Shown here: positions 29,029 to 40,227 of the stretch, piece by piece
Numbering within the stretch: the first letter of the stretch is position 1
How the letters are laid out: each line of letters begins with the position of its first letter
NCBI GenBank assembly: GCA_027624855.1
Contig: JAQBTQ010000015.1
Span: 1-64,000 of the forward strand
Length of the DNA: 64,000 nucleotides
Reading direction: 5' to 3'
Origin: Bacteroidota bacterium
GTDB lineage: Bacteria > Bacteroidota > Bacteroidia > Flavobacteriales_D > Sanyastnellaceae
Position numbers and translations under genes: made by a program
Notes under the pieces: generated by a model
Seen by the model: the letters and a program-made list of their open reading frames with translations, nothing else
Told to the model about the DNA's origin: nothing
The model's database searches: none

Positions 29029-30438
29029 ATGAAGGGATTGGCGTTACACTGGCAAGTCATCATTGGACTGCTGCTTGGAGTCGTTTATGCTTGGTTGAGC
29101 GTGACTTTGGGCTGGAATGATTTTACACTGAACTACATTCAACCATTCGGTGACATATTCATCAATCTACTCAAATTAATCGCAGTCCCTTTGGTGCTAT
29201 TCAGCATCATCAGTGGGGTTACCAGCCTGGGAAACATCAAGAAACTGGGTCGTATGGGAATCAAAACCCTGCTGACCTACATCGGAACGACCATGGCGGC
29301 AGTCATCATTGGCTTGTTGCTGGTGAATATTTTTCAACCTGGAGCTGGTGCCGACCCGGAATTACTGGAGACCAATCGCATTCGATATGAATTGTGGCGA
29401 GATGCATCAGGTGTGCAGGCGCTGGATGAAATGCGAATGATCGATGATCCTGCCAACGCAGAAACAGTCGCTTCAGTGCGTTCAGAACAAGTAGCCTCCA
29501 GTGAATGGGTCAAAGACAAGCTGGAGAAGGCATCGACAACGAAAAAGTCTGGTCCGCTTCAACCGCTGGTTGACGTCATTCCTAAAAACATCTTCGGCTC
29601 ATTGGTTAACATGAGCATGCTTCAAATCATTTTCTTCGCAATTTTCTTCGGTGTCGTCGTCGTAGGATTACCGGATGAAAAAAAACGGCCATTGACCACA
29701 GCCATAGACTCCTTGAATGAAGTGTTCATACAAATGGTATGGGTGGTTATGAAAGCGATGCCCTTTTTCGTTTTCACTTTGATGGCTGGACAAATTGTGA
29801 AAGCGGCAGGTTCGGACCCTGAAATGCTTCAGCAGTTGCTGAGCTTTCTATTGCGATATGGCTTGGTGGTTATCCTGGGATTGGCATTCATGGTCTTTCT
29901 CTTTTATCCAGCGTTGGTTTCCATAACTGTCAAAAAAATGGGTTGGAGACGGTTTCAATCCGGCATGCGATCAGCTCAGCTCACTGCTTTTTCCACTTCC
30001 AGTTCGGTTGCCACGTTGCCGGTTACGATGAAATGCGTCCATGAAGAACTTGGGGTCAGCGCTCGAACTTCCTCTTTCGTGTTGCCAATTGGCGCAACCG
30101 TTAACATGGACGGAACCAGCATGTATCAGGCAATTGCTGTGGTCGCTTTGGCCCAATTCCACATGGTCGACCTCGCTTTATCTCAACAAGCGGTCATCGT
30201 CCTCACCGCGACATTGGCGTCCATAGGCGCGGCTGCGGTTCCATCTGCAGGATTGGTGTTGATGATCATCGTCTTGGAAAGCGTTGGACTAAACCCAGCT
30301 TGGATCGCCCTAATTTTTCCCATTGACCGAATTCTTGATATGTGTCGAACCGTGGTCAACGTTACCGGTGATGGTGCCGTCTCTTCCATCATCGCAGCAT
30401 CGGAAAACGAATTACAAACCACCGAATCAAACGCATGA
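29029..30438 (+). CDS. Dicarboxylate/amino acid:cation symporter (DAACS/GltP family)
   Basis: 469 residues with about eight membrane spans. HP1 carries the family serine-rich motif FSTSSSVATLPVT, and span 7 carries ATVNMDGTSMYQA (the NMDGT substrate/cation motif). C-terminal RILDMCRTVVNVTGDG closes the binding site. It imports glutamate, aspartate or C4-dicarboxylates with Na+ or H+. A charged loop of about 85 residues (about 105-190) is longer than in bacterial GltPh-type carriers. Its stop touches a possible ATGA start of the next gene. Confidence 0.92.
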   Translation: MKGLALHWQVIIGLLLGVVYAWLSVTLGWNDFTLNYIQPFGDIFINLLKLIAVPLVLFSIISGVTSLGNIKKLGRMGIKTLLTYIGTTMAAVIIGLLLVNIFQPGAGADPELLETNRIRYELWRDASGVQALDEMRMIDDPANAETVASVRSEQVASSEWVKDKLEKASTTKKSGPLQPLVDVIPKNIFGSLVNMSMLQIIFFAIFFGVVVVGLPDEKKRPLTTAIDSLNEVFIQMVWVVMKAMPFFVFTLMAGQIVKAAGSDPEMLQQLLSFLLRYGLVVILGLAFMVFLFYPALVSITVKKMGWRRFQSGMRSAQLTAFSTSSSVATLPVTMKCVHEELGVSARTSSFVLPIGATVNMDGTSMYQAIAVVALAQFHMVDLALSQQAVIVLTATLASIGAAAVPSAGLVLMIIVLESVGLNPAWIALIFPIDRILDMCRTVVNVTGDGAVSSIIAASENELQTTESNA

Positions 30439-30461
30439 TTGGGAGGTCGATTCCCACCGGT

Positions 30462-32513
30462 ATGAATCGCTTAATTCTAAGCTTAACGGCTGTGCTCTTC
30501 TTCCTCAGCTTGGCTGGCACAAGTTATGCGCAAGAGGAACTCGACGAAGAAAATATCTGCCATTCCGACCCAAGCGAAAAAGCGGCGAAAGCACTGGAAA
30601 AAGGCATGCGTTCCTCGAAATATGACGTCGAACAACGAATAGAATTTTTGAGGGAAGCTTGGGCGACTGATGAAGATTGTTTCGAATGCTTATTTCAGCT
30701 TGGGATGTTGGAGTTTTGGAATTACCGGTCGGGAAAAGGAGATGCCTCAGAGGCCGAGGAAGCGTTATTGGAGTTGGCGGATCGTTGTCCGAATTACCGG
30801 GATGATGCATGGTATGCACTTGGAGTCTTGGCACTTGCTAAAAAAAATCAAGAGAAAGCCCTCATTCACTTTGAACAGTACTTGGATTTTGAATCGGATT
30901 TCGATGAATCATTCGGTTCAAGGCGAGACAAGCGCATAGAAGAAGTCCGTTCAGTGGTTGAGAAGATCGAATTCGAATTGGCATTTTGGAAACACCAGGA
31001 TTCATTCATACCCGTCCCCATCAGTGAATTGAGTTCAAGCGACGATGAATTTCTTCCCGCCTTATCGCCGGATGGTTCGATGCTTTTTTTCACCAGAAAA
31101 GAGCTTATCAAAAACAAAGGCGATATAGTCACCACAGAATCAGAAATTTTCCGGGTTTCACTTCGCGACTCAACAGATTTTACAGCGGGAATGCCAATGG
31201 AGTCTCCTTTTAACACGGGAAATCGATACGGTGGCGCCACCATTTCCATTGATAATCGAGAGATGTTCATTGCTGCGATCAACCCAAACCCAATGAACGA
31301 CCGGAACATTGACATTTATTCAACGAAATACACCGTCAATGAAGACGCGCAGAATGCCATTGAAAAATATGCTTGGGGACCATTGACGCTCGTTGAAAAC
31401 ATCAATTCGCCGGATGGTTGGGAAGCCCAACCGGCCTTGAGTCCAGACGGCAAGGAGTTGTATTTTGCGCGAATCAATGGGGAATCCATTCGCGATGAAA
31501 ACGGCAACCCGTCCATGGATATATGGGTTTCGCTTAGGAAGGCCGATGGTGGCTGGAGTAACCCGACCCTCCTGCCCGCCCCAATTAACTCACAAGCCCA
31601 TGACAAAGCCCCCTTTTTGCACCCGGACGGTAAAACCATGTATTTCGCGAGCGATCGCAAGCCCGGTGGCGGCGGCTATGACATTTGGATGAGCCGTCGG
31701 GATGAAAACGGCAATTGGGAAGCACCAACGAATTTTGGTGCTCCAATCAATACCTCGGGCAACGAGCACGGACTCGTTGTGAGTGCAAATGGAACCGAAG
31801 CATTTTTCTCGAGCAATCGTGCAGGGACGAAAGGTCTCGACATCATCTCCTTTCCTGTACCCGAAGAAATGAAACCAAAAGAGGTTTTTATTTTGACCGG
31901 CAACGCAGGTTCCATCGGCGATAGCCTCCATCAACCCACCCGTCTCTACTTGAAGTATGCACAGTCGAAACGCGTTCAAGAAATTGAAATAGACCGGTTG
32001 GACGGACACTTCGCATCAGTCGTTGAAACCGGAATGAACGAAGACGTCTTGCTGGTTGCTGAAGGCGATGGGTTTTCATTTGAAAGTCAAATCATTCATG
32101 ACCGAAACTCTGATACCCCAAAGAACCGCTTTCAAGCGTCCATAAGCAGTTTCGATGAAAAAGATGAGAAGCCTTTTGAAATCGGTGAAATCCAATTCGA
32201 AACCAATTCATACCAAGTGAGCCGAACCAGCCAGCTCATGCTCGCAGAATTTGCCGAATTTTTGAACCGTAAAGGGAATTACACGATCAAGGTCATGGGC
32301 CATACTGACAGCCAAGGAAATAAAAGTGAGAATCAGATTTTGTCAGAAAATCGCGCAAATGCGGTGGCAGCTGTTTTAATTGAACATGGCATTCCACCTG
32401 CATTCATTGTATCAGAAGGATACGGCGACACCAAGCCATTGGCTACAAATTCAACGCCTGAAGGACGCGCGCAAAATAGAAGGACCGAATTTGACGTTCA
32501 GAAGAGCAACTAA
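30462..32513 (+). CDS. PorE-like protein: TPR, beta-propeller (PD40) and OmpA C-terminal domain
   Basis: 683 residues from ATG 30462 (signal peptide MNRLILSLTAVLFFLSLAGT, cleaved near SYAQ); an ATG at 30435 overlapping the previous stop is also possible. Tetratricopeptide helices lie at about 60-160. Propeller repeats follow with recurrent motifs such as LSPDGSMLFFTRK and ALSPDGKELYFAR. The OmpA/MotB peptidoglycan-binding domain is at about 570-683 (GHTDSQGNKSENQILSENRA, GYGDTKPLA). This domain order matches PorE, an accessory T9SS component linking the outer-membrane machinery to peptidoglycan. There are also other Bacteroidota OmpA/PD40 proteins, so the T9SS role is likely but not proven. 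Confidence 0.8.
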   Translation: MNRLILSLTAVLFFLSLAGTSYAQEELDEENICHSDPSEKAAKALEKGMRSSKYDVEQRIEFLREAWATDEDCFECLFQLGMLEFWNYRSGKGDASEAEEALLELADRCPNYRDDAWYALGVLALAKKNQEKALIHFEQYLDFESDFDESFGSRRDKRIEEVRSVVEKIEFELAFWKHQDSFIPVPISELSSSDDEFLPALSPDGSMLFFTRKELIKNKGDIVTTESEIFRVSLRDSTDFTAGMPMESPFNTGNRYGGATISIDNREMFIAAINPNPMNDRNIDIYSTKYTVNEDAQNAIEKYAWGPLTLVENINSPDGWEAQPALSPDGKELYFARINGESIRDENGNPSMDIWVSLRKADGGWSNPTLLPAPINSQAHDKAPFLHPDGKTMYFASDRKPGGGGYDIWMSRRDENGNWEAPTNFGAPINTSGNEHGLVVSANGTEAFFSSNRAGTKGLDIISFPVPEEMKPKEVFILTGNAGSIGDSLHQPTRLYLKYAQSKRVQEIEIDRLDGHFASVVETGMNEDVLLVAEGDGFSFESQIIHDRNSDTPKNRFQASISSFDEKDEKPFEIGEIQFETNSYQVSRTSQLMLAEFAEFLNRKGNYTIKVMGHTDSQGNKSENQILSENRANAVAAVLIEHGIPPAFIVSEGYGDTKPLATNSTPEGRAQNRRTEFDVQKSN

Positions 32514-32543: not shown

Positions 32544-33083
32544 ATGAACTTCCGGTCCCTGCAATTATTCGCCGCATCCTGCTTCTGCATTTTGTTGAGT
32601 TGTTTCAATGAAGAGGATACCATTCATGGAATTCCCCGGGATCACTGGAGTTCTTTTGGAGATAGCATCGATGTAAATCAACCCCTGATTTCGATGCAAG
32701 AAGGAAAAAATCGATTGGCAGCATATGAAGATGCATCTGGACTGTTTTTAGGGGAAATCATTGAAAGCTGCGGAAAACTCGGATGCTGGATGATCGTCAG
32801 TGAGGAAAATGGCGATACCGTTCAAGTGTTCATGAAACAACACGAGTTCTTCATCCCTAAGGACAGCCTTGAAGGATTAACGGCTCTCATACAAGGACGA
32901 GCACATATGGACACGTTGTCAGCTGAGCTTCACAAGGAGTTGCTCCTTGATTCCAATGGCACCGAAACAAGTGGCAAAATTCAAGAGATGAATGACGTCC
33001 TGATTCAATTCATCATCGAGGCCAGTGGAATACTCATCGCGGATGTGCCAGATGGTGTCCTTAAAAAGCATCAAGATTCCTAA
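32544..33083 (+). CDS. DUF4920 domain-containing lipoprotein
   Basis: 179 residues. A signal peptide ends in ILLSCFN, a lipobox with C20. The DUF4920 core is visible as GEIIESCGKLGCWMIVS (two Cys flanking the strand) and HEFFIPKDSLEG. The fold is an OB-like domain in which family members often bind metal or nucleic acid, but the function is unknown. Probably anchored to a membrane facing the periplasm. It follows the PorE-like gene after 30 bp and could be co-transcribed. Confidence 0.8.
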   Translation: MNFRSLQLFAASCFCILLSCFNEEDTIHGIPRDHWSSFGDSIDVNQPLISMQEGKNRLAAYEDASGLFLGEIIESCGKLGCWMIVSEENGDTVQVFMKQHEFFIPKDSLEGLTALIQGRAHMDTLSAELHKELLLDSNGTETSGKIQEMNDVLIQFIIEASGILIADVPDGVLKKHQDS

Positions 33084-33168
33084 GAAGGGTTCAGATCAAT
33101 TTGCAGAGGAGTTAGGCTTTTTTGGCGGGAAAAACCACCTCAAAAAGGCACAAGCCACCGTTGAGAAC

Positions 33169-33183
33169 TTCACCAATGGTGAA
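33169..33183. promoter_or_regulatory. Palindrome upstream of the TPR/barrel operon (possible operator)
   Basis: TTCACCAATGGTGAA is a perfect inverted repeat (6-bp arms, 3-bp centre) lying 22 bp upstream of the TAATTTCG box, near the expected -33 position. It is a candidate regulator site only. Confidence 0.3.
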
Positions 33184-33205: not shown

Positions 33206-33213
33206 TAATTTCG
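33206..33213 (+). promoter_or_regulatory. Possible promoter box of the TPR/barrel operon (TAATTTCG)
   Basis: TAATTTCG matches TAnnTTTG except one base and ends 6 nt before the ATG at 33220. Confidence 0.45.
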
Positions 33214-33219
33214 AGAGAA

Positions 33220-36200
33220 ATGAAACAGACGTTGTTAAGGCCATCTCCTACCCTTATTTTTTTGGTGTTGACGCTGGTCGTTGGGGCAGAATCCCACCTG
33301 CTTGGCCAGTTCCAAACCGATGACGACTTTGATCGCGCACATCAATACTGGGAACATCAAAAATTCAGCGCTGCACTGCAGGCCTATGATCATTGGATTG
33401 ACAAGCATCCGGACGAATCTTCGGACAAACTTGCCACAGCGGCATACCGATCAGCGCGATGTGCAATTGAGCTGCATCATCCCGATGCCCAACAGCGGGT
33501 TCAATCGTTCTTGGAAACTTTTCCCGAAAGCCCCCTTTCTTGGGAAATTGAATGGGATTATGGCAATCATTTGTACAGAACTGGTAAATGGAAAGCCGCT
33601 GCAACTGCTTTGGACCAGCTGAACACGTTGAAAATGACGCCAGAGCAAAAGCTCCAGTGGCAATTCAAGAGAGGCCATGCATATTTTGAATTGGAAGAAT
33701 TCGAAAAAGCGCGGCTGGATTTGTTTGCTGTCATGGAATCGAAAGAGAAAATCGCGGAATATGCAGAGCCCGCCCTTTACTATTTCAGTCATATATCCTA
33801 CCTATTCGGACAACCACAAGTCGCGCTTGAAGGATTCGAATCATTGCAGGATGCAGAAGAACTGAAGGATATCGTTCCGATTTACATCGCTCAACTCCTC
33901 CACGAAACTTCGCAATACGAACGACTTATTGAATATGCCCCTGTTGTTTTGGGTGAGGAAGTAGCCCTAAACAATCGACAACGAAAAGGCATTGTGCGGT
34001 TGTTGGGGGACGCTCTGTATAGGGGGCAACGATTTGAAGAAGCCCTCCCATACTTGAAAGAAGCCTATGATGAAGCTGACCGTGCGGAGCGGACCGTCGA
34101 CTTCGCTTACCAAATGGGCTCAACATATTTCTATCAGGGGTCCTATCAAGAGGCATTGGATTGTTTCGCGCTGGTGACCCGAAATCAAAATCAATGGAGT
34201 CAAATCGCCCATTATCAATCAGCCTCTTGCTTTCTCGCTTTGGGAGAGAAACAAAAAGCCCGCTTTGCATTCAAGAATGCTGCTGATTTAGAGGACGATC
34301 CTAGTATACAAGAAGACGCCCTATACAATTATGCAAAACTCGCTTATGAATTGACATTCAATCCATTTGATGAGGCCATCATCGCAATTGAAAAGTACTT
34401 AGAGACGTACCCAAATTCGAGGAAGAAAGATGAGGCCAACGGATTTTTGTTGGAAGTCTACATGTCCTCAAAAGATTATGATCGGGCTATGCTGGCACTT
34501 GAAAGAATTGATGCCAAAACCCCCGATGTCAAGAAGGCTTATCAACTCGTAGCATTCAATCAGGGAGTTGAACTTTTCCGCACGGGGAAGTATCAAGAAG
34601 CCCAATCGTTTTTCCAAAAATCCAGAACGTACCCCATCAATTCCATCCTATCGGCAGAATCGATTTTCTGGGAAGGCGAAGCGAGCTATTTGATGAAGGA
34701 TTACACAGCCGCCACCTCCCTGTATGCTCAATTCGAGTCAGCTCCGGGGTCATTCAAAAGCACACATTATGCAGATGCGATGTACGCAAGAGGATACGCT
34801 TTATTCAAGCGTTCCAAATACATCGACGCGCTCAGTGCGTTTCGAAGCTTTCTGAAAACAACAAAAATATCAGAGGGTTCTAAAATTCTCGACACGAAGC
34901 TTCGCATCGCTGACTGTTATTTTGCAAACAAAGAATTCGATTCTGCAGCCGATTATTATCAAGAAATTATTCAAGCGGGTAATCAAGAGATTGATTACGC
35001 CCGATATCAACGAAGTGAATGTTTTCTGTCCTTGAATCAACCTCAAGATCAACTTTTGGAATTGGCTTCCATCATTGAGAAGCATCCACAATCAACCTAT
35101 GTGCCTCAAGCAAAGTATCAGGCTGCACGCACCCATATTTCATTGGTCCAATTGGATGAGGCATTGATTCATTTGGAATCGCTTCGCAACGATTTCCCAG
35201 AATCCATTATGAGCAAATTGGCTCTGGTAGACCTCTGCTTAATCGCTATGAAAAATGACCAAGCAGAACAAGCATTGCAATATTGGGAGATCATCCGCAC
35301 CCAATATCCGAACGATCCAATCGCAAGCGACGCCTACAATGTCGTTGAACCCTTGTTAATTGATCGAAATTTATTGGACGATTTGCCTTCTGGAGTGGGA
35401 TTGAACAAGGATGAAATTGAGGAACGACTATTTCTCGCCTCCAGGGAATTGGCACTCGACAGGAATTGCGAAAAAGCGGTCTTGCGTCTCTCTGAATTCA
35501 CGAGACAATATCCCAATAGCCCATACTGGATTGAGGCCCATTTTTTCTTGGGAAGCTGTGCATATGACATTGATCAACAGGAACTTGCACGCCAATCGTT
35601 TGAGACGGTGTTGGCTGGGCCCACAACCGATTTCAGTGAACAAGCTGCTATTGGTGCTGCTACCATTGCTTGGAACGCAAAAGATTATCCCGGGGCAAAA
35701 CTCCATTATCAAACACTTGAAAAACTTCACGCTTCAAAATCCTCCAAGCTAGAAGCTCAAATTGGATTGATGCGGTGCCATTATGTTTTAGAAGAATTTG
35801 ATGCTGCTCTGAGCTATGCGAATGAAGTGCTCGCTGCACCGGAGACTCCGGAGGATATTGGACAAAAAGCCACGTTTTGGAGAGGGAAAATTTTATTTGA
35901 TCAAAGGGAATTTGAACAGGCCTTGCCAGACCTTGAACAAACGGCTTCCATGGGAGGTCAAAATAGTGCTGAAAGCCAGTTTCTGATTTGCCAAATTCTT
36001 TTCCAGCAGGGCGATTACTCATCAACAGAGCAAGCCATTTTCAAACTGATTAATGATCACGGCAATCAACAAAAATGGCAACATCAAGGTTTTCTATTGC
36101 TCATCGATACTTACATCAGCTTAAAGGACTGGTTTCAAGCGAGAGCAACCGCAGAAAGCATTCTTGAATTTGTCCAAAAAGAAGAAATTCTGGAACAAGC

Positions 36201-36300
36201 CCGAATAAAATTAGAAACCATCAATCGATTGGAAATGGCGGAATTGGCACCCATAAATGCCTCAGATTCTATACCAAATAACCTCGACATCAACGAATGA
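33220..36300 (+). CDS. Large periplasmic tetratricopeptide-repeat protein
   Basis: 1026 residues with an N-terminal signal peptide (hydrophobic LIFLVLTLVVG). Almost the whole length is TPR-type helical pairs, with recurrent motifs such as ADAMYARGYALFKRSKYIDA and YQMGSTYFYQGSYQEALDCF, giving perhaps twenty or more repeats similar to BamD/YbgF-type TPRs. No catalytic domain is visible. Its stop overlaps the start of the outer-membrane barrel gene (ATGA), so the two products are made together and likely interact at the outer membrane. Such TPR-barrel pairs occur in Bacteroidota without assigned function, as far as I know. Confidence 0.82.
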   Translation: MKQTLLRPSPTLIFLVLTLVVGAESHLLGQFQTDDDFDRAHQYWEHQKFSAALQAYDHWIDKHPDESSDKLATAAYRSARCAIELHHPDAQQRVQSFLETFPESPLSWEIEWDYGNHLYRTGKWKAAATALDQLNTLKMTPEQKLQWQFKRGHAYFELEEFEKARLDLFAVMESKEKIAEYAEPALYYFSHISYLFGQPQVALEGFESLQDAEELKDIVPIYIAQLLHETSQYERLIEYAPVVLGEEVALNNRQRKGIVRLLGDALYRGQRFEEALPYLKEAYDEADRAERTVDFAYQMGSTYFYQGSYQEALDCFALVTRNQNQWSQIAHYQSASCFLALGEKQKARFAFKNAADLEDDPSIQEDALYNYAKLAYELTFNPFDEAIIAIEKYLETYPNSRKKDEANGFLLEVYMSSKDYDRAMLALERIDAKTPDVKKAYQLVAFNQGVELFRTGKYQEAQSFFQKSRTYPINSILSAESIFWEGEASYLMKDYTAATSLYAQFESAPGSFKSTHYADAMYARGYALFKRSKYIDALSAFRSFLKTTKISEGSKILDTKLRIADCYFANKEFDSAADYYQEIIQAGNQEIDYARYQRSECFLSLNQPQDQLLELASIIEKHPQSTYVPQAKYQAARTHISLVQLDEALIHLESLRNDFPESIMSKLALVDLCLIAMKNDQAEQALQYWEIIRTQYPNDPIASDAYNVVEPLLIDRNLLDDLPSGVGLNKDEIEERLFLASRELALDRNCEKAVLRLSEFTRQYPNSPYWIEAHFFLGSCAYDIDQQELARQSFETVLAGPTTDFSEQAAIGAATIAWNAKDYPGAKLHYQTLEKLHASKSSKLEAQIGLMRCHYVLEEFDAALSYANEVLAAPETPEDIGQKATFWRGKILFDQREFEQALPDLEQTASMGGQNSAESQFLICQILFQQGDYSSTEQAIFKLINDHGNQQKWQHQGFLLLIDTYISLKDWFQARATAESILEFVQKEEILEQARIKLETINRLEMAELAPINASDSIPNNLDINE

Positions 36301-38078
36301 TCATGGGCCGATTTCAAAAACGACTTTATACACTGGCCATTGGCATGCTCCTCTGCAGCGTCCATGACGCCACTGCAGCGTTTAGTTCAAGTGACACCTT
36401 GGATCTGGATGTCACTTTCACAGGGGTGCGAGACGTATCCTTAAGGGATGCCCATAAACAAATGATTTGGCCCCGTCCTGCTGATTTAAACCTGGATAAA
36501 CCGGCATTCGAATATTCTTTGATGCCCGTTCGCATGAACGTGAATCCCACATGGGAAAGGGAAAAGCCCAAAAGGTTGAAGCTCGAAGAGCCCATGCAAA
36601 GGCTGTATCGAGGATTTGTGGATCTTGGAATGGGGAACTATCTCTCTCCTTCTTTAACAGCGAGCTACACCGACCTGAGAGCCAAAGATTCGAATTGGGG
36701 CACCCAAATTCTCCATCAATCCACGAGAGGAGGATTCATTTTGGATGAATCATTGGAAAACGAAAGCCCGCAACAGTTCAGTTCAACGGAGGTTTCTGGT
36801 TGGTACAAGAAGTTTTTCAAGCGTCATCAATTGACAACGACCACAGCTTATAATAGGGATCACATTAGTTATTATGGCAGGACAAACGAAGTCCTTGTGG
36901 ATACTTCCTTCTTTGGTACGGGGGACTCGTCCACCTTTCAAAGCTGGAATTCAGAGGTTCGCTTTGGTCAATTGAATAATGACGCTGATTTAAAAATTGA
37001 GGCTACGGCGAAGTATCAATTGTTTTGGAATGACCGCAACGTAAAGGAGCACAATTTAGACGCAACCGTCAGCATCCAAAGAAATGTTGAAAGCACGCCT
37101 TTTTCGCTTCTCTTGCACTCCAACATTGATCGGTTAAAACGCCAAGAAGAAGGACTCATTTTAGCTCCACAAAAACAGGCCATTTTCGATCTCCATCCGA
37201 ACATCTCAAAATCGACCGAAAATCTGAAAACCCATTTTGGCTTTGGGCTTTGGATTGATGCTCAAGGCAATAAACCCTTTCTTTTTGTTCCAGAAATCAG
37301 CGCGTCATTATCGTTGCTGCAAAATGTATTTGTTGCCTATGGCGAATTAGGCGGCGGGATTGATCAAAATCGCTTTGCTGCGGCCCTGGAATTGAACCCC
37401 TTTATACCATCTCCTGCTGACACCACTTCTGATTGGCAAAACACCTATGAAAATCTTGCAGTGCGCGGAGGGCTGAAAGGATCTATCACGCGAGCCATTG
37501 CTTTTGATCTCTCAGCATCGAACAAAAACAGAAAGCAACACCTTTTTTGGACTCCAATCGATCCATTTGGTAACGGCTCCGCCTTCTCTCCGCTATATCA
37601 AGATGTCAACATAACAACCCTTTCAGGAAATGCTACATGGAAACTGAATGACGCCACGAGCATTTCAAGTTCCATTCAACAGCACACCTATCGGTTCGCA
37701 GACACTTTGCAAACGGAAATGACTGCATGGAATTTACCGAGTATGGAAATCAGAGGCCAAGTCCGTCATTCCATCAAAGACAAAATCCACTTCAATTCTT
37801 CAATTGAATGGGTCACAGGCCGGCGCGGAATGAATGCCTACAGCCCAATCGTTGAATCCATCGAAGAGATTACAGAGATTACCAGTCAATCCATTTTAGG
37901 ATATGCCTACGACTTACAGGACATCCTTCGATGGAATATGCGGATTGAATATGCTTACAACGCTAGGATAAGTGCTTGGATATCAGGGATTAACCTCCTG
38001 AATCGAACCAATCCCGTCTTCTACGGATACAACGACCAAGGCATCCGTTTTCAAATGGGATTTAATTACGCATTTTAA
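36297..38078 (+). CDS. Outer-membrane beta-barrel protein (TonB-receptor-like barrel without plug)
   Basis: 593 residues. A signal peptide at the N-terminus (LYTLAIGMLLCSVHDATAAF) is followed by about 100 residues of linker. Alternating amphipathic strands then continue to the end, which terminates in MGFNYAF with the C-terminal aromatic typical of Omp85-inserted barrels. The region YRGFVDLGMGNYLSPSLTAS starts the strand-rich part. No TonB box or plug domain is recognisable. The barrel is translationally coupled to the preceding TPR protein, suggesting an outer-membrane transport or assembly module. Substrate unknown. Confidence 0.78.
   Translation: MIMGRFQKRLYTLAIGMLLCSVHDATAAFSSSDTLDLDVTFTGVRDVSLRDAHKQMIWPRPADLNLDKPAFEYSLMPVRMNVNPTWEREKPKRLKLEEPMQRLYRGFVDLGMGNYLSPSLTASYTDLRAKDSNWGTQILHQSTRGGFILDESLENESPQQFSSTEVSGWYKKFFKRHQLTTTTAYNRDHISYYGRTNEVLVDTSFFGTGDSSTFQSWNSEVRFGQLNNDADLKIEATAKYQLFWNDRNVKEHNLDATVSIQRNVESTPFSLLLHSNIDRLKRQEEGLILAPQKQAIFDLHPNISKSTENLKTHFGFGLWIDAQGNKPFLFVPEISASLSLLQNVFVAYGELGGGIDQNRFAAALELNPFIPSPADTTSDWQNTYENLAVRGGLKGSITRAIAFDLSASNKNRKQHLFWTPIDPFGNGSAFSPLYQDVNITTLSGNATWKLNDATSISSSIQQHTYRFADTLQTEMTAWNLPSMEIRGQVRHSIKDKIHFNSSIEWVTGRRGMNAYSPIVESIEEITEITSQSILGYAYDLQDILRWNMRIEYAYNARISAWISGINLLNRTNPVFYGYNDQGIRFQMGFNYAF

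Positions 38079-38189: not shown

Positions 38190-40227
<2,038 letters not shown>

Follow-up and report, generated by a model that had tools for sequence, protein, structure and literature searches.

A giant TPR protein and a plugless outer-membrane barrel encoded as neighbours throughout most of the class Bacteroidia

The window analysed here, a stretch of 64,000 nucleotides from a Bacteroidota bacterium of the family Sanyastnellaceae (assembly GCA_027624855.1, contig JAQBTQ010000015.1, positions 1 to 64,000 of the forward strand), contains two overlapping genes for a giant tetratricopeptide repeat (TPR) protein and for an outer-membrane barrel that resembles TonB-dependent transporters and has no plug domain. 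We found this gene pair to be a core feature of the class Bacteroidia. In a draw across the phylum, all 72 class genomes with one of the genes have both, and the two are neighbours in 71 of them; for this reason we consider it highly probable that the two products work jointly as a core machine of the cell envelope. A previous sequence-only reading of the window had described two co-directional open reading frames (ORFs; 1026 and 593 amino acids) sharing ATGA, and this arrangement was confirmed (Table 1). It had also taken the implied co-translation to suggest one complex: joint occurrence and linkage are strong support for a single functional unit, and the two products presumably form a physical complex as well. 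A literature search, with preprints and most subscription journals outside its reach, returned no paper naming the pair.

Distribution and linkage of the two genes

Used as a single query, the barrel of the window matched 93 of 101 genomes from the family and 195 of 199 from the order (48/48 and 149/149, respectively, among genomes at least 90% complete and with at most 5% contamination). The same query reached only 50 of 296 genomes drawn across the phylum, and profiles were therefore built. With these, both genes were recovered in 72 of the 73 class genomes of the phylum draw, and in all but one of the 72 they are neighbouring on one strand, so that the gene neighbourhood is conserved. The gap, measured between profile matches and not between ORF ends, is at most 531 bp in 61 of the linked genomes and about 1.1 kb in 10. 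Four of the wide-gap loci were inspected (L082, L106, L123 and L139; Flavobacterium-type), and by eye a PhzF-like ORF is found between the two genes in each. The sole unlinked case is genome G286, where the genes are 188 kb apart. Independent occurrence of the homologues, which would speak against a joint system, is therefore limited, as regards linkage, to one genome of 72, and perhaps to one family outside the class (f34, see below).

A second draw from the class recovered the TPR gene in 200 of 207 genomes. The seven genomes negative at E 1e-30 comprise G549, which has a genome size of 0.5 Mb, G555, whose family-mate G587 carries two copies, three members of one genus (f93 g233: G560, G592 and G618) and two of another (f22 g286: G659 and G679). 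Named carriers include Flavobacterium, Aquimarina, Tenacibaculum, Pedobacter, Flavisolibacter, Lewinella and Marinifilum, among others. Moreover, at least 119 named stretches were found by a DNA pattern; among the matches listed, the TPR gene is present in 119 of 119, and a barrel sequence lies beside it in 85, always on the same strand. Many of the remaining 34 are cut at the stored edge, whereas L122 and L153 extend some 1.4 and 0.8 kb, respectively, downstream of the TPR gene with no recognised barrel. Lineage names for the coded families and genera in this study derive from TPR similarity to named loci. Since the pair is near-universal in the class (72/73 and, for the TPR gene, 200/207), we rejected the notion that it is a local or lineage-specific oddity.

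Outside the class only the TPR gene was counted, at E 1e-30, because the barrel profile gives mostly partial matches there, maybe to other barrels. The gene is present in 133 of 223 genomes, and all 133 also possess SprA; 26 genomes have SprA without the TPR gene and 64 have neither. Among the SusD-positive genomes, 65 of 72 carry it. These associations are inflated by shared ancestry, as related genomes are not independent. The co-distribution resembles the pattern reported for BamG/BamH, SusCD and SprA in PMC12611786, where the Chlorobiota are described as the only members of the FCB (Fibrobacteres-Chlorobi-Bacteroidetes) group without these proteins; our genomes without SprA, SusD and the TPR gene are presumably Chlorobia. 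Within the class, three genomes with SusD and no SprA match (G237, G463 and G471) keep both genes of the pair, so that it is not confined to genomes with SprA, as would be expected of a component of the type IX secretion system (T9SS). A barrel match lies beside the TPR gene in seven of nine outside-class genomes inspected, which were chosen partly because the TPR and barrel matches shared a contig. The other two, G384 and G376 of family f34 (loci L218, L219 and L220), have a TPR gene without a recognised adjoining barrel and a weak barrel match on another contig.

The two proteins and their relation to known systems

The Pfam matches of the TPR protein are essentially all TPR-type, and its structural model is a long superhelix of 53 helices, counting that of the signal peptide (mean predicted local distance difference test, pLDDT, 88). 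A Foldseek search with this model gave generic repeat proteins with low TM-scores. Judged by eye, the protein probably starts with a Sec signal peptide, and Gln30, directly after it, is invariant across 48 aligned homologues. A Gln at the mature start after signal peptide cleavage is what the Bacteroidetes Q-rule predicts (PMC10653852), and we hence regard the protein as probably periplasmic and not a lipoprotein. The TPR fold assigned to it by the sequence-only reading thus stands, and the periplasmic location is made probable by the N-terminus.

Two NCBIfam cut-offs are exceeded by the TPR protein: TIGR02795 (YbgF; 173.1 vs 90.1 bits, with several repeats on a 119-position model), which also matches 48 of 48 homologues at E 1e-5, and TIGR03302 (BamD/YfiO; 89.8 vs 81.4 bits), which covers part of the 1026 residues. 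We dropped both names despite these scores, since the scores arise where short TPR models align within a long array of repeats, and automatic pipelines may misname the family as YbgF or BamD in the same way. BamD is a lipoprotein of about 240 residues, and this identity was rejected in view of the length of our protein and its invariant Gln, not Cys, at the presumed mature start. Tol-Pal/CpoB (YbgF) is similar in having a TPR protein and, in some families, ExbB/ExbD-type or OmpA-like neighbours; however, the TPR protein of the pair is much longer and has a barrel partner, the full CpoB model PRK10803 is far from reached (51.6 vs 383 bits), and no tol-pal genes are found among the four scanned genes upstream of the pair in the window, so that a CpoB identity was rejected. 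PorW/SprE of the T9SS is also a large periplasmic TPR protein of Bacteroidota, but our protein stays well under the cut-off of its model NF052312 (62.8 vs 250 bits), for which this identity was rejected too, and the pair is kept without SprA in the three class genomes above. A second long TPR-profile match within the same genome was observed in G237, G537, G573 and G587, possibly representing paralogues.

The barrel was modelled with a mean pLDDT of 84, and its model contains 26 beta stretches within residues 106-592. The model suggests about 22 membrane strands, possibly 24, with both termini periplasmic; the count of 22 drops short stretches in loops and the low-confidence segment 525-539, which restores the topology with both ends periplasmic. 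In structure searches with this model, the best 50 rows are all TonB-dependent transporters or relatives, both with Foldseek (BtuB, E 3.4e-18) and with VIA-align (FhuA, Z 23.1, root-mean-square deviation 3.2 over 436 aligned residues). At the sequence level neither Pfam nor NCBIfam contains a family that matches the window barrel at E 0.01, and searches of PDB sequences with the single TPR or barrel protein gave nothing useful. The barrel profile matches PfeA (E 3.3e-5), PF00593 is found in 4 of 81 barrel homologues (best E 6.8e-7), and TonB-receptor models match a minority of members. None of the 81 matches the plug domain (PF07715) at E 0.01. Together with the transporter-like model this upholds the earlier description of the barrel as plugless, and for want of the plug we rejected a canonical TonB transporter.

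Where the plug would be, about 80 residues form an N-terminal tail that carries the motif DAxKxxxxP...Y. Residues before 103 are modelled with low confidence, and a profile of the tail matched no transporter in PDB. A TonB-box-like stretch, EEIVVTTAY, is seen in the tails of loci L062 and L070. A loose TonB-box pattern occurs in 26 of 81 tails, compared with a mean of 3.1 and a largest value of 8 in 200 shuffles; this pattern was picked post hoc and many of its matches are close relatives, and in seven control windows along the barrel it gave 2, 0, 0, 2, 1, 13 and 4. An earlier loose pattern, used with no control, gave 36 of 81. Conservation is high in the extracellular loops L1, L7, L9 and L11. 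Of the 30 most conserved positions, 21 are in extracellular loops or halves, against about 18 expected by length. A constant surface partner of the barrel was rejected on this basis, since the loops as a whole are not conserved.

The sequence-only reading could name no outer-membrane machinery of this composition, which proved wrong: Slam is reported to join a TPR N-terminal domain and a 14-strand DUF560 barrel in one polypeptide (PMC5449769). The pair shares with Slam a periplasmic TPR part plus an outer-membrane barrel, but it consists of two genes and its barrel has about 22 predicted strands instead of 14. DUF560 (SlipAM) is not among the four Pfam families matched by any of the 81 barrels at E 0.01. 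On the features tested, we therefore rejected the pair as Slam. TonB-dependent transporters such as BtuB, FhuA, PfeA and SusC have the barrel fold in common with the pair and differ from it by the plug, the tail and the constant TPR neighbour. Oar of Myxococcus xanthus is a TonB-transporter barrel required for outward protein traffic, and in this respect is comparable; it has, however, a plug and a TonB box, and no giant TPR partner is described in the part of PMC6434023 consulted. The core of the Bacteroidota β-barrel assembly machinery (BAM), BamADGH, is likewise an outer-membrane machine at the core of the phylum with a similar phyletic pattern; its BamG is a 14-strand FadL homologue (PMC12578637), and the word 'tetratricopeptide' occurs in the main text of neither Bacteroidota BAM paper (PMC12611786 and PMC12578637). 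The pair is thus of the TPR-plus-barrel kind; what sets it apart is its wide distribution and an importer-type barrel that has no plug. BcsC, PgaA and AlgK/AlgE are exporters of the same TPR-plus-barrel composition.

Upstream region and gene neighbourhood

Upstream of the TPR gene, a 25-bp element is followed after exactly 34 bp by a TAnnTTnG box, which we take to be a -7 element from the Bacteroidota promoter consensus. Order and spacing are identical in all 11 sequences compared (the window plus nine relatives of the genus and one of another genus), which supports the promoter box proposed earlier (TAATTTCG in the window). With up to 3 mismatches allowed, the element is found once in the genome, as is its backwards control, and 0.01 occurrences are expected by chance in the window; it may be a dedicated activator site. 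A palindrome that the sequence-only reading had placed before the pair, TTCACCAATGGTGAA, exists but fares differently: it is present in 0 of 10 relatives, and perfect 7-1-7 palindromes are as frequent in the window (four) as in shuffles (5, 7, 2, 8 and 2), for which reasons we rejected it as an operator. Inverted repeats with 7-bp arms and loops of 0-8 bp are in excess in the window (60 vs 28-43 in five shuffles), but this excess includes terminators and does not single out the palindrome. A promoter and terminator scan of the TPR-gene leader found none.

Table 1. Features in and around the gene pair in the window
Feature	Position	Strand	Basis or remark
PD40-OmpA protein gene (context)	30435..32513	+	Pfam/NCBIfam scan; PorE-like but under family cut-off
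DUF4920 protein gene (context)	32544..33083	+	domain scan
Conserved element GGCACA-N6-CGTTGAGAACTTC, possible activator site	33147..33171	+	11/11 sequences, fixed 34-bp spacing
Palindrome TTCACCAATGGTGAA	33169..33183		present, not conserved
TAATTTCG, -7-like promoter box (TAnnTTnG)	33206..33213	+	11/11 sequences
Giant TPR protein gene	33220..36300	+	1026 aa; ORF, TPR family matches and model
ATGA, stop/start codon overlap of the TPR and barrel genes	36297..36300	+	sequence
Barrel gene	36297..38078	+	593 aa; plugless TonB-transporter-like outer-membrane barrel; ORF and model
Codons for the barrel N-terminal tail (residues 24-102)	36366..36602	+	low-confidence in model; conserved DAxKxxxxP...Y
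Probable gyrB (context, downstream of barrel gene)	38215..40227	+	ORF, identified by eye

The DUF4920 gene adjoins the pair also in loci L053 and L081, where a PD40-OmpA gene is near the pair as well. According to the ORF list and domain scan, no T9SS genes lie beside the pair in the window. Of 190 loci, 92 contain an FtsE-like gene, and in every one of these 92 it is divergent from the TPR gene; many of the 190 loci are cut short, and the set includes three weak, unrelated TPR matches from G502. In 133 loci the TPR gene is complete and 900 bp or more of upstream sequence is available; in 70 of these the FtsE-like gene is no more than 700 bp away from the TPR gene. The best NCBIfam match of a representative protein is FtsE (241.2 bits vs a cut-off of 264.85), and the other FtsE-like genes were assigned by BLAST to this one representative. 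The divergent FtsE-like gene spans Flavobacteriaceae to Bacteroidales (Marinifilum and Prolixibacteraceae; e.g. L054, L097, L175 and L180). Recurring neighbour genes were clustered in 50 long loci, and 10 of these, from two families, have ExbB-type and TonB-like genes after the barrel (L057, L060, L062, L064, L065, L066, L068, L070, L077 and L078), with ExbD-type genes clustered in 8. In L062, the sole one of these loci checked for domains, the barrel is followed by MotA_ExbB, ExbD and a SPOR protein, and the TonB-like protein has no Pfam match. OmpA-like genes are near the pair in L038, L042 and L059.

Possible functions of the pair

Our first choice, held tentatively and well short of even confidence, is that the pair may export or assemble polypeptides of the cell surface, above all surface lipoproteins. 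The composition is Slam-like, Bacteroides is reported to lack Slam and is expected to have another system (PMC5449769), the 2025 BAM papers do not settle which machine exports the surface lipoproteins of Bacteroidota (PMC12611786 and PMC12578637), and Oar shows that a TonB-type transporter can serve in secretion. The near-universal occurrence and linkage of the pair in the class, the co-distribution of the TPR gene with SprA and SusD outside it, and the three class genomes that have SusD but no SprA and yet keep the pair also speak for this reading. The physical complex, direction of transport, cargo and energy source are those that we infer as follows. The plugless barrel, descended from TonB-dependent transporters, would be the conduit across the outer membrane, and the TPR superhelix a periplasmic arm for receiving and holding what is transported, most likely surface polypeptides and chiefly surface lipoproteins. 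This cargo would be moved outward or passed to partner barrels, so that the pair would act in the manner of Slam, though it is not Slam itself. The conserved tail might serve to bind the TPR protein or act as a gate of the pore, and in some lineages energy could come from ExbB/ExbD with a TonB-like protein. A bolder version, which we find doubtful, would make the pair the translocon for surface lipoproteins that is still missing in Bacteroidota. In this view an importer of the TonB type would have become an exporter, with its plug lost, a tail retained that TonB might pull, and the giant TPR protein added as a receptor loading lipoproteins from the periplasm; in Sphingobacteriaceae-like genomes, its own ExbB/ExbD/TonB-like motor would be encoded next door.

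Several observations speak against an export or assembly role or lend it no clear support. The TonB-box count in tails (26/81) has to be set against up to 13 in a control window, and extracellular loops are overall less conserved than strands (1.41 vs 1.82 bits). Outside the class, the 26 SprA-positive genomes noted above lack the TPR gene, and among SprA-positive genomes there the link between TPR gene and SusD is weak (Fisher p 0.052). Within the class, G502 lacks both the pair and SprA despite its 10 scored SusD matches, and genera f22 g286 and f93 g233 have no TPR gene at the cut-off used; these cases indicate that the pair is not an obligatory lipoprotein exporter everywhere. Finally, the neighbours point to division as much as to export.

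Nearly as likely as the export or assembly role, and still only possible, is a division-coupled, Tol-like module, in which the TPR protein would span the periplasm from the barrel to the division or peptidoglycan machinery and, powered by motors of the ExbB/ExbD type, would help to constrict or anchor the outer membrane. The divergent FtsE-like gene in nearly half of the loci (92/190) is in accordance with this, although a divergent neighbour does not imply a shared function and the representative falls under the FtsE cut-off. The SPOR, ExbB and ExbD proteins after the barrel in L062 and the recurrence of these gene clusters among the long loci (ExbB-type 10/50, ExbD 8) also argue for it, but the ExbB set is confined to two families. 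OmpA-like genes near the pair in three loci, together with the PD40-OmpA gene upstream in the window, and the matches of YbgF-type models to the TPR protein fit as well; the full CpoB model, however, is not reached, and we know of no TonB-transporter-type barrel in Tol systems.

A role in outer-membrane homeostasis, where the barrel would be a port for moving or balancing lipid or lipopolysaccharide and the TPR protein a scaffold, appears improbable. The near-universal TPR gene in the class, the single-purpose promoter element in the genus and the absence from the 0.5-Mb genome G549 would suit such a role, whereas the barrel fold is that of transporters for soluble ligands, and no lipid-transport domain or gene lies beside the pair in the neighbour clusters examined.

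Polysaccharide export of the BcsC/PgaA or AlgK/AlgE type has the same gross composition of TPR protein and barrel, and glycosyltransferase-like genes were seen by eye beyond FtsE in some loci. We nevertheless consider it very unlikely: those exporters are linked to a polysaccharide synthase, none of which was seen by eye among the recurring neighbours of the 50 long loci, exopolysaccharide systems are patchy in distribution whereas the pair is in nearly all class genomes, and the best 50 rows of each structure search are TonB transporters. Equally remote is an accessory part of the T9SS, for which the SprA genes in all 133 TPR-positive genomes outside the class and the distant PorW/SprE match would speak, but against which stand the three class genomes holding the pair without SprA, the 250-bit cut-off of that model and the absence of T9SS genes beside the pair in the window.

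Being near-universal in the sampled genomes of a large bacterial class, the pair is likely a basic part of surface building there. If it exports surface lipoproteins, this would answer the question left open by the 2025 Bacteroidota BAM papers (PMC12611786 and PMC12578637) and would demonstrate an importer turned exporter. If it is instead a division module, it would show a coupling of outer membrane and division in this group.

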